Source: Subtercola sp. | Lineage (GTDB): Bacteria > Actinomycetota > Actinomycetes > Actinomycetales > Microbacteriaceae | Length of the DNA: 62,530 nt | Direction of reading: 5' to 3' | Assembly: GCA_025463765.1 (NCBI GenBank) | Contig: JAODBC010000041.1 | Span: forward strand, 1-62,530 | Shown here: positions 37,290 to 43,550 of the stretch, piece by piece | How the letters are laid out: the number at the start of each line of letters is the position of its first letter | Numbering within the stretch: position 1 is the stretch's first letter | Made by a program: the position numbers and the translations under genes | The notes under the pieces: generated by a model | Told to the model about the DNA's origin: nothing | The model's input: the letters and a program-made list of their open reading frames with translations, nothing else | The model's database searches: none

Positions 37290-39938
<2,649 letters not shown>

Positions 39939-40075: not shown

Positions 40076-40861
40076 TCAGCGGATGACGCGCGCGACCTCG
40101 CGTGCCAAGGCCGGGCGCACGAAGTGGTCGTTCTTCGGCACCTCGTGCACCGTGACATGCTGCAGCCGCGCCAGGCGCTCGATGCCGTCGCCGACGAGAA
40201 CCTGATCGCGTGAGCCGTACACGACCTCGACCGGTACCGTGATCTGGGCGATGTCGGTGATCGTGGTCTGACCCTCGATGCAGTGCTCCATCGACAGCGC
40301 AAAAGCGCCCCAGTAGCGTTCTTCGATGAGCAGCGCCTTCACCGGAATGAACCGGTGCAGCCACTCGGCCCGACGCATGGTCTGCTCTTTGTTCGAGCGC
40401 AAGAACTTGTACGCGCGCAGGTAGCTCTTCACCACCGTGCGGTCGCCGAACTCGGTGATGTAGGCCTCGTTCGCGTAGATGGGTGGAGCAACGAGCACGA
40501 CTTGGGCGATCTCGCGACGGTAGATCGCCGCATACCGGCTCGAGATGAGAGCGCCGAGGCTGTGCCCGACAAGAGTGAAACGCCCCTTCAGATGAAGTGA
40601 GCGGATGGTCGCATGAAGTGCCGCCACGTGTTCGTCGAGCGTGAAGGTCGCCTCGGCCGGCGCCACAGACTTACCGAACCCGAGCAGGTCGATGGCGATG
40701 ACCCGGTACAGCGGCGAGAGCAGCGGAACCACGTTGACCCAGCTCTCAGAAGACGAGTTGATTCCGTGGATGAGCACGACGATCGGGCCCTGACCTTCGT
40801 CGAGTGCGACGTTCAGTAACGGGGCCGTTCGTGACGGCCAACCGAATCTCGGTTCTCCCAT
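40076..40861 (-). CDS. Alpha/beta-fold hydrolase
   Basis: A 261-aa alpha/beta hydrolase. The oxyanion-hole motif is VVLIHGINSSSESW, the nucleophile Ser is in LVGHSLGALISSRYA, the acid is probably the Asp in VYGSRDQVLVGD and the catalytic His is in VPKNDHFVRPALA. There is no signal peptide, so it is cytoplasmic. This branch includes many hydrolases and dehalogenase-like enzymes without assigned substrate. It is divergent from the repeat-peptide/JmjC operon across 174 bp. Confidence 0.92.
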   Translation of the reverse strand: MGEPRFGWPSRTAPLLNVALDEGQGPIVVLIHGINSSSESWVNVVPLLSPLYRVIAIDLLGFGKSVAPAEATFTLDEHVAALHATIRSLHLKGRFTLVGHSLGALISSRYAAIYRREIAQVVLVAPPIYANEAYITEFGDRTVVKSYLRAYKFLRSNKEQTMRRAEWLHRFIPVKALLIEERYWGAFALSMEHCIEGQTTITDIAQITVPVEVVYGSRDQVLVGDGIERLARLQHVTVHEVPKNDHFVRPALAREVARVIR

Positions 40862-41035
40862 CGACGTCTTCTTTCGCTCGGGGCCTCACATTCATGCTGA
40901 GGCAAGCTCATAATACCTCATTAGCGTGTCTAAAGCTGCGAAACAAGGGGATACGGAGGCTACCTCTCGCCGCGGTGATCGGCGTACGCTCGTAGTGCAC
41001 GCGGCACGCCGCCGTGCAGTACCGAAAGGACGACT

Positions 41036-41287
41036 ATGGCTATCAATGACGACGACATCACCACCGAACAGGGAGCGGGCGGAGAGGGTCCCGCGGATGG
41101 CGGCGCAAACCCGAATGGACACGACGGAGGAGCCGATGGCTCCGCCGGCGAAGGAACTGCCGACGGCGGCGCGAACCCGGGCGGCCACGATGGTGGCGCT
41201 GACGGTTCGGCCGACGAAGGGGAGGGTACCGCTGATGGCGGCGCTAACCCCGGCGGCCACGATGGCGGGGCCGACGGTTCCGCCTGA
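41036..41287 (+). CDS. Repeat peptide, possible substrate of the adjacent JmjC oxygenase
   Basis: An 83-aa peptide with no Cys, aromatic or hydrophobic core. After a 15-residue acidic leader (MAINDDDITTEQ) come three copies of the unit ADGGANPGGHDGGADGSA (first copy NP-N-G), joined by EGT or DEGEGT spacers. At DNA level the three copies differ at most third codon positions while 17 of 18 amino acids stay fixed, which points to selection on the peptide and not recent duplication. AAAGGA precedes the ATG. The stop TGA shares a base with the ATG of the JmjC gene (TGATG). It may be a substrate peptide hydroxylated on Asp, Asn or His, or a metal-binding peptide; neither is proven. Confidence 0.82.
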   Translation: MAINDDDITTEQGAGGEGPADGGANPNGHDGGADGSAGEGTADGGANPGGHDGGADGSADEGEGTADGGANPGGHDGGADGSA

Positions 41288-42546
41288 TGTCTTCATTCGA
41301 GCGCGGGTCGGGCGACCGGCCCGCGCTTTCTCGTTGTGTTGGAACTGACCGCGCCGCGACGTTCGACCGCGACTACTGGGCCGTACGCCCGCTGCTGAGC
41401 ACGGCATCCGAGTTGCCCGCCGGCTTCGACGACCTCTTCAGCGCCGAGGCCGCCGACGATCTCATCTCGCAGCGTGCGCTGCGCACCCCTTTCATGCGCA
41501 TGGCGCTCGAAGGCTCGGTGCTGAACGCCTCGAAATACACCGCTCCGGGCGGCTTCGGCGCCGAAATCGGCGACCAGGTGTCGAGCGAGAAGGTGCTTGC
41601 CGAGTTCGCCGCCGGCGCCACCATCGTGCTGCAGGGCCTGCACCGCACGTGGCCGCCGCTCATCGAGTTCACCCGTGCGCTGGTCGATGAGATCGGGCAT
41701 CCGGTTCAGGTGAACGCCTACATCACACCGGCGAGTTCGCGCGGATTCGACCCGCACTACGACGTGCACGACGTGTTCGTGCTGCAGATCGCGGGCGAGA
41801 AACACTGGAGCATTCACGAGCCCGTGCATCCGTCGCCGCTGCGCAACCAGCCCTGGGGCGACCATCGCGATGCCGTGGCGAAGCGTGCAGAGGGTGAGCC
41901 CTTCATCGACGCGGTCTTTCACCCGGGTGACGCGCTGTACCTGCCGCGCGGCTGGATCCATTCGGCCGAGGCTCTCGGCGGAACATCCATTCACCTCACC
42001 ATCGGCGTCGCCGCCTACACGCGGGCCGACGTGGCCGAAGTCATACTCGCGCGACTCGCCGACACCGAAGCCCTGCGCACAGCGCTGCCATTCGGCATCG
42101 ACTTCACCGACGTCGAGCAGGTGTTGCCCATCGTGCAAGACGTGCTGGCTGAGCTGCAGTCGACGCTGTCGACCGTGGATGATCGCGCCACAGCCGTTGC
42201 CCGTGCCCACGATGTGAGTGCCTCCCTCGCGCGCACGCTCTCGGGCGCGACCCGCCCCGAGCCGGTGTCGCCGATCGCGACTGTCGACGCCATCGCCGCG
42301 CTCGGCGGCTGGAGCGCGGTTCGCTGGCGTGGCTCGCTGCGAGCCACCGTTACGAGCGACGAGAGTTCGGTGCGCATCAGCACCGGCGGCCGCACGGTTG
42401 TGCTGCCCGTGGAGGCCGCCGACGCCGTCGAGCGGCTGCATCAGGGTGACGCGGTTGCTGTCGAAGAGCTGCCCGGTCTCGACCTCGACTCCGCTCTCGT
42501 AGTGGTGCGACGCCTGCTGCGCGAGGCGATCGTCGTTCCGGCGTGA
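41287..42546 (+). CDS. JmjC/cupin-4 2-oxoglutarate Fe(II) oxygenase, ribosomal-oxygenase-like
   Basis: A 419-aa protein of the JmjC (cupin_4, ROX/YcfD-like) family. The iron ligands are H157 and D159 in FDPHYDVHDVFVLQ and H225 in LPRGWIHSAEALGG; K172 in GEKHWSIHEP is placed to bind 2-oxoglutarate. The C-terminal 150 residues form the helical/winged-helix dimerisation part found in ribosomal oxygenases, which hydroxylate Arg or His side chains. Translation is coupled to the repeat peptide upstream (TGATG) and to the ferredoxin-like gene downstream (GTGA). The peptide rich in Asp, Asn and His is therefore the obvious candidate substrate. Confidence 0.92.
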   Translation: MSSFERGSGDRPALSRCVGTDRAATFDRDYWAVRPLLSTASELPAGFDDLFSAEAADDLISQRALRTPFMRMALEGSVLNASKYTAPGGFGAEIGDQVSSEKVLAEFAAGATIVLQGLHRTWPPLIEFTRALVDEIGHPVQVNAYITPASSRGFDPHYDVHDVFVLQIAGEKHWSIHEPVHPSPLRNQPWGDHRDAVAKRAEGEPFIDAVFHPGDALYLPRGWIHSAEALGGTSIHLTIGVAAYTRADVAEVILARLADTEALRTALPFGIDFTDVEQVLPIVQDVLAELQSTLSTVDDRATAVARAHDVSASLARTLSGATRPEPVSPIATVDAIAALGGWSAVRWRGSLRATVTSDESSVRISTGGRTVVLPVEAADAVERLHQGDAVAVEELPGLDLDSALVVVRRLLREAIVVPA

Positions 42547-43550
42547 CGCTTCAGGCCGTCGACTGGGCGCCGTGCAGCAACCGCTCGCGCGAACGCGACG
42601 ACCCCCTCGCGGCGACCGCGTCGCGCGGTCTGCAGTGGTTTCTCGTCGAGATCGAGGGCGCCTGGGGCGCGAACGCGTTCACGTCGGCAGCGCTCGGCCG
42701 TGAGCTCGGGCAGGCCATCGTTCACCGGGTCGAGGCCGCTGGCATGCGGCCCCTGGCGATTCGCCGTGTGGCCCGAGCCGCGCATTCGGCAGGCGGGCGT
42801 TCGGTGGCCCGCCCGCCCCGCTGGCGCTGGGCGTTCGTCGACTCGCGGCCCGGGTTCGAGCAGGTGCGCTGGGGCGAGGTGGATGCTCCGCAGGAGTTGC
42901 TCGATGTTCCGCTCGACGGCTCGACGGGCATCCGCTCGCCAGAGGCGTTGTACTGTGTGTGCACACATGCCAAGCACGACCAGTGCTGCGCCGTACACGG
43001 GCGGCCCGTTGCGCTGGCCCTCGCAGAGACCTACCCCGACCAGACCTGGGAGTGCTCGCACCTCGGCGGCGACCGCTTCGCCGGAACCATGGCGATCTTT
43101 CCCGGCGGGCACTACTACGGTCGCGCCGACGACGCCGAGACGGTCGGCATCGTTCGCGACTACCTCGACGGTCGCGTCGACGAGCGGTACTACCGGGGCC
43201 GCAGCTCGCTCTCGCACCCTGCCCAGGCCGCGCAGCACTACGCTCGCGTGCAGCTCGGCGACGACCGGCTGTCGTCGTTCGCCGTGGTGGGCGAGCGGAT
43301 GCTCGTGGCCGACGGCCCCGCAACAACGGAGGTTCTGCTGGCCGCGCCCGCCCCAGCGCCTGCGCCCGGCCCGGCGGCCGCGCCCGGAGATGGTGCGTTG
43401 CATGCCGCGCCCGAGAGCGCCGCGCCACCCGCGCTCGTGCGTGTCGTCGTCGCGGAGACCCTCTCGCAGCCCCTGCTCAGCACCTGCGCCGCCACCCGCT
43501 TCGGCCGTGTGCGCGAATACGAACTGATCTCGCTCGACCCGCCCCGATAA
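42543..43550 (+). CDS. Sucrase/ferredoxin-like [2Fe-2S] protein
   Basis: A 335-aa protein of the Suc_Fer-like family with a thioredoxin-like [2Fe-2S] fold. Signatures are CSNRSRERDDPLAATAS at the N-terminus, YCVCTHAKHDQCCAVHGRP with the cluster cysteines, WECSHLGGDRFAGTMAIFP and HYYGR. A Pro/Ala/Gly-rich insertion (about residues 265-295) splits the C-terminal part. The GTG start overlaps the stop of the oxygenase gene by 4 bp. It could supply electrons to keep the oxygenase iron reduced or to reduce iron bound by the peptide; this is inferred from gene coupling only. Confidence 0.9.
   Translation: MTLQAVDWAPCSNRSRERDDPLAATASRGLQWFLVEIEGAWGANAFTSAALGRELGQAIVHRVEAAGMRPLAIRRVARAAHSAGGRSVARPPRWRWAFVDSRPGFEQVRWGEVDAPQELLDVPLDGSTGIRSPEALYCVCTHAKHDQCCAVHGRPVALALAETYPDQTWECSHLGGDRFAGTMAIFPGGHYYGRADDAETVGIVRDYLDGRVDERYYRGRSSLSHPAQAAQHYARVQLGDDRLSSFAVVGERMLVADGPATTEVLLAAPAPAPAPGPAAAPGDGALHAAPESAAPPALVRVVVAETLSQPLLSTCAATRFGRVREYELISLDPPR

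Follow-up and report, generated by a model that had tools for sequence, protein, structure and literature searches.

A conserved pairing of Asp-rich repeat peptides with JmjC oxygenases in actinobacteria suggests a leader-guided peptide-modification system

A set of three genes, encoding an Asp-rich repeat peptide, a JmjC oxygenase and a Suc_Fer-like protein, was analyzed in a stretch of 62,530 nucleotides (the window) from Subtercola sp. (contig JAODBC010000041.1, assembly GCA_025463765.1). The set is not peculiar to the Subtercola genome but is present across many actinobacteria, and the pairing of the peptide gene with the JmjC gene is well supported. By its architecture, it is best read as a leader-guided system resembling those of ribosomally synthesized and post-translationally modified peptides (RiPPs), in which the peptide would be the modified substrate. 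The first gene (41036–41287, including the stop codon; ATG start) encodes a precursor peptide of 83 aa, the second (41287–42546, ATG start) a 2-oxoglutarate- and Fe(II)-dependent oxygenase of 419 aa that belongs to the JmjC_2 family (PF08007) and is modeled with a ribosomal-oxygenase fold, and the third (42543–43550, GTG start) a Suc_Fer-like protein of 335 aa with a predicted thioredoxin-like [2Fe-2S] domain. As described in the initial annotation, all three are located on the + strand (41036–43550), with a 1-nt overlap between the peptide and JmjC genes (TGATG, 41285–41289) and a 4-nt overlap between the JmjC and Suc_Fer genes (GTGA, 42543–42546). In a more specific reading, to which we assign an even chance, the set matures the peptide: the JmjC protein binds the leader and hydroxylates repeat aspartates, the product is a metal-binding (most likely iron-binding) peptide, and the Suc_Fer-like protein is the redox partner.

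The Subtercola genome contained one JmjC match, and the named proteins nearest to the oxygenase were from Subtercola and Herbiconiux. An Asp-rich open reading frame (ORF) ended close to the JmjC start in all 33 loci of a first count (L001–L033), from which the distant proteobacterial loci L034 and L035 were left out. A class-wide sample of 296 genomes yielded 60 ortholog-tier JmjC places, and 20 lower-scoring contrast places were taken as the best of a longer list. Fifty-eight of the ortholog-tier places were readable (G072 was not fetched, and G153 was cut by a contig end), and at 56 of these, counted by eye, the JmjC gene was preceded by an Asp-rich ORF that was repetitive in almost all cases. 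The two exceptions, G137 and G324, contained an acidic, non-repetitive ORF at this place. These two ORFs (loci L077 and L079) share a C-terminal DDPEL-x-GADL-x-EDQ, have no Suc_Fer neighbor, and are possibly drifted substrates. In a phylum-wide draw, matches were found in 36 of 246 genomes; among the 25 loci fetched outside the class, all 23 that were readable carried an Asp-rich ORF upstream of JmjC (L159 and L161 were cut by contig ends, and G494 was not fetched). The reciprocal search agreed: a profile built for the type of peptide in the window matched 20 of the 296 genomes at an E value of 1e-8 or better, at one place each, and every place lay within 250 nt upstream of a JmjC gene. No Asp-repeat ORF was located upstream of the other JmjC genes used as controls (L034 and L035, proteobacterial, and L087, L096, L101, and L105). 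A further JmjC gene, at L099, adjoins an ORF that we take to be TfuA-like. The neighborhood check proposed initially, namely that JmjC and Suc_Fer pairs should have a repeat ORF in front, was thus answered consistently for the Asp-rich ORF (33/33, 56/58, and 23/23), and a precursor gene is kept beside its presumed modifying enzyme across genomes.

The peptide of the window begins with a short acidic segment, MAINDDDITTEQGAGG (41036–41083), a putative leader that is likely the recognition sequence, followed by three 18-residue units with the spacers GEGT and DEGEGT: ADGGANPNGHDGGADGSA (41093–41146) and two copies of ADGGANPGGHDGGADGSA (41159–41212 and 41231–41284). The purine-rich AAAGGA at 41025–41030 is the likely ribosome-binding site of this gene. 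An acidic leader with three repeat units had been claimed, and this architecture holds, whereas the first unit reads ADGGANPNGHDGGADGSA, not PGG. Pfam and NCBIfam yielded nothing for the peptide at E values up to 1; profile A4, which was built with the window peptide included, matched at its place with an E value of 1.1e-34. Among the 396 window ORFs of 40–200 aa, it was the only one with at least 12% Asp together with at least 55% Asp, Ala, and Gly, and this unique composition argues against a chance ORF. Between GHDG-anchored units within 42 loci, synonymous divergence (pS 0.459) was far above nonsynonymous divergence (pN 0.037; ratio 0.081), with the anchor fixing four residues, which lowers pN somewhat, and dropping units without GHDG; an earlier count that required a strict motif (41 loci, ratio 0.058) is superseded by this one. 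These values indicate that selection at the protein level keeps the repeats and that the copies have diverged.

Across loci, the cores were of very different kinds, including ADGGANPxGHDGGADGSA (Microbacteriaceae and mycobacteria), EGPADGGAxGTPGVHDGGADGGA, ADGG runs, DGTDGDATDGD, DPAG, and DADST. The precursor start, in contrast to these variable cores, was mostly conserved as L-x-(D/E)(D/E)(D/E)(I/M)-x-T, and a simple DDDITT-type motif was present in 69 of 85 precursors compared with 3.8% of shuffled ones. The 16 precursors without the motif included EGPADGGA-type peptides whose start is very short. A mostly conserved leader is thus joined to several unrelated repeat types as cores, and modified ribosomal peptides are usually built in this way, with a fixed leader preceding a free core. 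One core type was met only once, at L172 (G449), where the precursor starts with ITDNDITSG and contains two copies of PTEDDENLDAPGEHSQDTGDE; no Suc_Fer gene was found in the fetched stretch of this locus.

Asp, Asn, and His had all been named initially as candidates for hydroxylation. None of the 83 distinct precursors lacked Asp, whereas 15 lacked His, 30 lacked Asn, and all lacked Cys; the His and Asn counts apply to the stretches as called, a few precursor starts having been set too far in (e.g., L053, L083, L084, L091, L097, and L098). His and Asn are thus dispensable and Asp is not, which makes Asp the likely target as judged from residue composition. It is rather unlikely that the enzyme instead hydroxylates the His (or Asn) of the GHD motif, as human ribosomal oxygenases do with His, with Asp as a mere spacer. 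The closest structures are indeed the histidyl hydroxylases NO66 and MINA53, and His was the commonest residue before DGGADG (158 instances in distinct peptides); elsewhere, however, this position was occupied by Ala (141), Gln (13), Ser (12), Gly (8), Thr (3), or single other residues. His as the main target was set aside owing to the His-free families, which include the DGTDGDATDGD-type cores. There is only a slim chance that Asp or its neighbors are oxidized in another way, for example to a cross-link or macrocycle, and that the predicted [2Fe-2S] protein feeds electrons to the enzyme: the Gly/Ala/Asp-rich cores offer few reactive partners, with Cys in none of the 83 precursors, and the number and spacing of the repeats vary freely, unlike in a fixed ring.

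The oxygenase matched JmjC_2 (PF08007) with an E value of 4.6e-28, and its iron ligands H157 and D159 (41755–41763) and H225 (41959–41961), reported as intact in the initial annotation, were invariant in an alignment of 18 sequences. The predicted model adopts the ribosomal-oxygenase fold over its full length. The C-terminal domain (aa 344–418, 42316–42540), modeled with a mean predicted local distance difference test (pLDDT) score of 90, consists of strands 344–347, 354–357, 361–365, and 370–374 followed by helices 375–385 and 400–412; this order is that of the winged helix of ribosomal oxygenases, NO66 alignments reach the end of the domain, and the domain is a candidate for leader binding. 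The protein thus combines a JmjC domain, a C-terminal winged helix, and an HxD…H iron site, as ribosomal oxygenases do, with the fold taken from the predicted model. Many bacterial JmjC enzymes carry no database name beyond cupin, L16 Arg81 hydroxylase, or NO66. In the sequence as deposited, the JmjC genes of L041 (G309) and L082 (G325), which stand beside a precursor and a Suc_Fer gene, are interrupted (internal TGA; split frame).

The full-length ribosomal-oxygenase fold would also accord with a JmjC protein that hydroxylates a ribosomal protein and merely shares an operon with an unmodified acidic peptide, which might bind calcium or another metal or act as a hydrophilic stress peptide; the cores resemble DxDxDG loops. 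We regard this as improbable, as peptide and enzyme genes occur together in 56 of the 58 readable orthologs, the type of peptide seen in the window turned up nowhere in the 296 genomes except next to the enzyme, and the leader is kept while the core varies. It is very improbable that the peptide is a decoy or regulator, rather than a product, that binds the oxygenase instead of a ribosomal protein. The overlapping genes, the fixed gene order, and a Gly-rich His context like that of the family's ribosomal substrates would agree with such a role, but mimicry of a single ribosomal site is hard to reconcile with repeats that are multiple and freely expanded and with cores that lack His.

The Suc_Fer-like protein matched PF06999 with an E value of 9.8e-18, and its predicted model has a thioredoxin-like [2Fe-2S] fold. 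The cluster motif of Apd1 and Aim32 is given as C-X8-C…H-X-G-G-H in the accessible part of PMC11138216. In the window, the predicted cluster cysteines C140-x8-C149 (42960–42989) were invariant in alignment A3, and the predicted second half of the site, H173-L-G-G-D177 (43059–43073), retains the first His of the motif but has Asp in place of the last. The cysteines claimed initially are therefore kept, while the second His of the family motif is not. This substitution is general: among 77 rows of JmjC-linked Suc_Fer proteins, the second His was replaced by Asp in 75 and by Cys in 2, and was never present, the rows including loci fetched twice (at least L001/L036, L018/L063, and L017/L067) and a further row, L009, having no readable motif. 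Another 20 Suc_Fer proteins located away from a JmjC gene were hand-chosen from the match list. An Asp ligand in the predicted [2Fe-2S] site would imply an unusual cluster.

A Suc_Fer gene was located downstream in 31 of the 33 loci L001–L033 (the exceptions being L003 and L026), and a clear one was found in 21 of the 25 loci outside the class. Within 5 kb of the JmjC gene, it was present at 49 of the 60 ortholog-tier places versus none of the 20 contrast places; the latter were compared by eye with the Suc_Fer list, in which the G285 place was not printed, its 5.2-kb locus L103 containing no Suc_Fer gene. Conversely, all 44 Suc_Fer matches of at least 280 bits adjoined (within 5 kb) an ortholog-tier JmjC gene, in a neighbor test of 70 rows that comprised all matches of at least 280 bits and hand-picked lower ones, including every row of genomes whose JmjC gene had no Suc_Fer neighbor. 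The JmjC/Suc_Fer pairing claimed at the outset is thus common but not universal. A relocated Asp-type partner was considered for the eight genomes with only a distant Suc_Fer gene; this gene was of the Asp type in G135, G120, G103, and G149 and of the His type in G305, G137, G324, and G116, so the relocation idea holds for one family only. L093 (G274) and L098 (G192) each have an additional, upstream Suc_Fer match, which places the precursor and JmjC genes between two Suc_Fer genes.

A separate JmjC lineage (f35) shows a comparable arrangement with another partner. Of 13 fetched stretches that were searched, 12 carried upstream of the JmjC gene a precursor of some 35 aa that hardly varies and ends like GGDSDGTDSSSDFI; some genomes are represented twice, and the thirteenth stretch, L177, begins at the JmjC gene. 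A prolyl oligopeptidase gene was present in seven of seven loci and an FhuF-like gene in five of seven within the fetched range. For 15 of the 16 genomes of this lineage that have a JmjC match, comparison of the places by eye put the top FhuF match on the same contig and strand as the JmjC gene and no more than 6.4 kb away; in G177, it was on another contig. In a tree of 46 rows, the FhuF-linked genes formed one fully supported clade, which a supported branch parts from all sampled Suc_Fer-linked genes. FhuF belongs to a Pfam family other than that of the window's Suc_Fer-like protein, described there as “Ferric iron reductase FhuF-like transporter”; like Suc_Fer, it accompanies a JmjC-precursor pair, but in a separate lineage. 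FhuF acts as a ferric-siderophore reductase. JmjC-precursor pairs thus have varying companions of the [2Fe-2S] kind, among them one named for ferric iron reduction. The combination of a precursor like MDPIEVEVEDLAEVTSRDITAGGDSDGTDSSSDFI, a prolyl oligopeptidase, and an FhuF-like protein with JmjC was observed at L090, L094, L095, L100, L102–L104, and L174–L179, some loci of the lineage containing additional genes for ATP-binding cassette (ABC) transporters, DUF2306 membrane proteins, or a pentapeptide-repeat protein, and these loci look like a further RiPP cluster.

In the proposed mechanism, the JmjC oxygenase would bind the acidic leader of the repeat peptide, possibly through docking on its C-terminal winged-helix domain, and would hydroxylate the repeat aspartates, presumably at the beta carbon. 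The hydroxylated peptide may then chelate a metal, most likely iron, and the predicted [2Fe-2S] Suc_Fer protein would be its likely redox partner, either reducing the peptide-bound iron or keeping the iron of the oxygenase ferrous. The initial proposal that the repeats, as leader plus core, are the substrate agrees with the gene linkage across genomes, with the target shifted to Asp. An FhuF-like partner in the separate JmjC lineage makes an iron-reducing role of Suc_Fer more plausible and gives the iron idea its strongest backing. Two results weigh against this proposal: no DtxR/IdeR-type box above shuffled sequences was found within 250 bases upstream of 84 precursors, in a single scan with a single 19-base consensus, and no uptake or export genes were conserved in 12 Suc_Fer-type loci. 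Both argue against a classical siderophore and make the iron-reducing role less plausible. ORF clustering of these loci (L022–L033), limited to ORFs of at least 120 codons from stop to stop, which smaller conserved genes would escape, recovered as recurring only JmjC, Suc_Fer, long frames over the peptide, and frames overlapping these; three mycobacterial loci among them shared neighbors of no evident relation. Genes for leader removal or export were likewise not conserved within 4 kb in the 12 loci, whereas the f35 lineage has the prolyl oligopeptidase and, at some loci, ABC transporter genes. The lack of a conserved transporter or peptidase suggests that the product likely acts inside the cell, and an intracellular iron-binding peptide fits better than a classical siderophore.

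No description of the gene set was found in open-access PubMed Central (PMC) papers, a coverage that leaves out most subscription papers, although related enzymes have been reported. NO66, MINA53, and YcfD (PF08007) share with the window's JmjC protein the modeled full-length fold, including the C-terminal domain, and the intact HxD…H iron site. Their targets are His or Arg residues in ribosomal proteins, whereas the window's enzyme is tied genetically to an Asp-rich repeat peptide and a Suc_Fer-like protein, a linkage that points to the peptide instead of a ribosomal protein as substrate. BipG and PbsQ of the biphenomycin clusters are JmjC-type hydroxylases of the ornithine step and, like the oxygenase proposed here, JmjC/cupin-type enzymes acting on a ribosomal precursor peptide; according to the available text of PMC12707348 and PMC12257519, they stand beside a multinuclear non-heme iron-dependent oxidase (MNIO), a B12-radical S-adenosylmethionine enzyme, and an arginase, whereas the window's JmjC protein is the only evident modification enzyme of its set and faces Asp-rich repeats. 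The reaction proposed here is described for nitrilobacillin biosynthesis, in which PesHI beta-hydroxylates an Asp of a RiPP precursor; in the available portion of PMC13060819, an MNIO, of a family other than JmjC, acts with a partner on one Asp, followed by nitrile formation. Fish and algae have JmjC PF08007 proteins fused to domains resembling the RiPP recognition element (RRE), and bacterial homologs occur in RiPP-like settings (PMC12710340). These findings point to a peptide-binding domain on PF08007 enzymes and to RiPP-like neighborhoods, as proposed for the window, and the accessible sections of that paper name no precursor, organism, or partner of the window's kind. Apd1 and Aim32 of the sucrase/ferredoxin-like family have in common with the window's Suc_Fer protein the C-X8-C and H-X-G-G motif and a modeled thioredoxin-like fold (PMC11138216 and PMC8482512, as far as their available text goes); the second His of their motif is Asp in the JmjC-linked proteins (75/77 rows).

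Two other genes of the window lie near the set. A divergent alpha/beta hydrolase gene (Abhydrolase_1; 40076–40861, - strand) was not among the conserved genes of twelve 9-kb loci. A large ORF (37308–39938, + strand) with a signal-like start, a PVTPVTP repeat run, and several hydrophobic stretches was judged by eye to encode a cell-surface or membrane protein.

With these pairings, a large set of bacterial JmjC enzymes gains a candidate substrate, leader, and partner. A more far-reaching picture, which we consider unlikely but worth stating, is that poly-hydroxyaspartate peptides occur phylum-wide: a leader-guided JmjC enzyme of the ribosomal-oxygenase fold would make an intracellular iron-binding polymer, a Cys2-His-Asp [2Fe-2S] ferredoxin would load or release the iron, and a separate lineage would have reached the same solution with an FhuF-type ferric reductase. 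The eukaryotic ribosomal oxygenases of the NO66/MINA53 type may derive from the same stock of peptide hydroxylases. Should each chain carry many hydroxylated Asp residues, the product would amount to a tunable polymer, encoded genetically, whose metal-binding chemistry is of a kind that, to our knowledge, has so far come mainly from single hydroxyaspartates.

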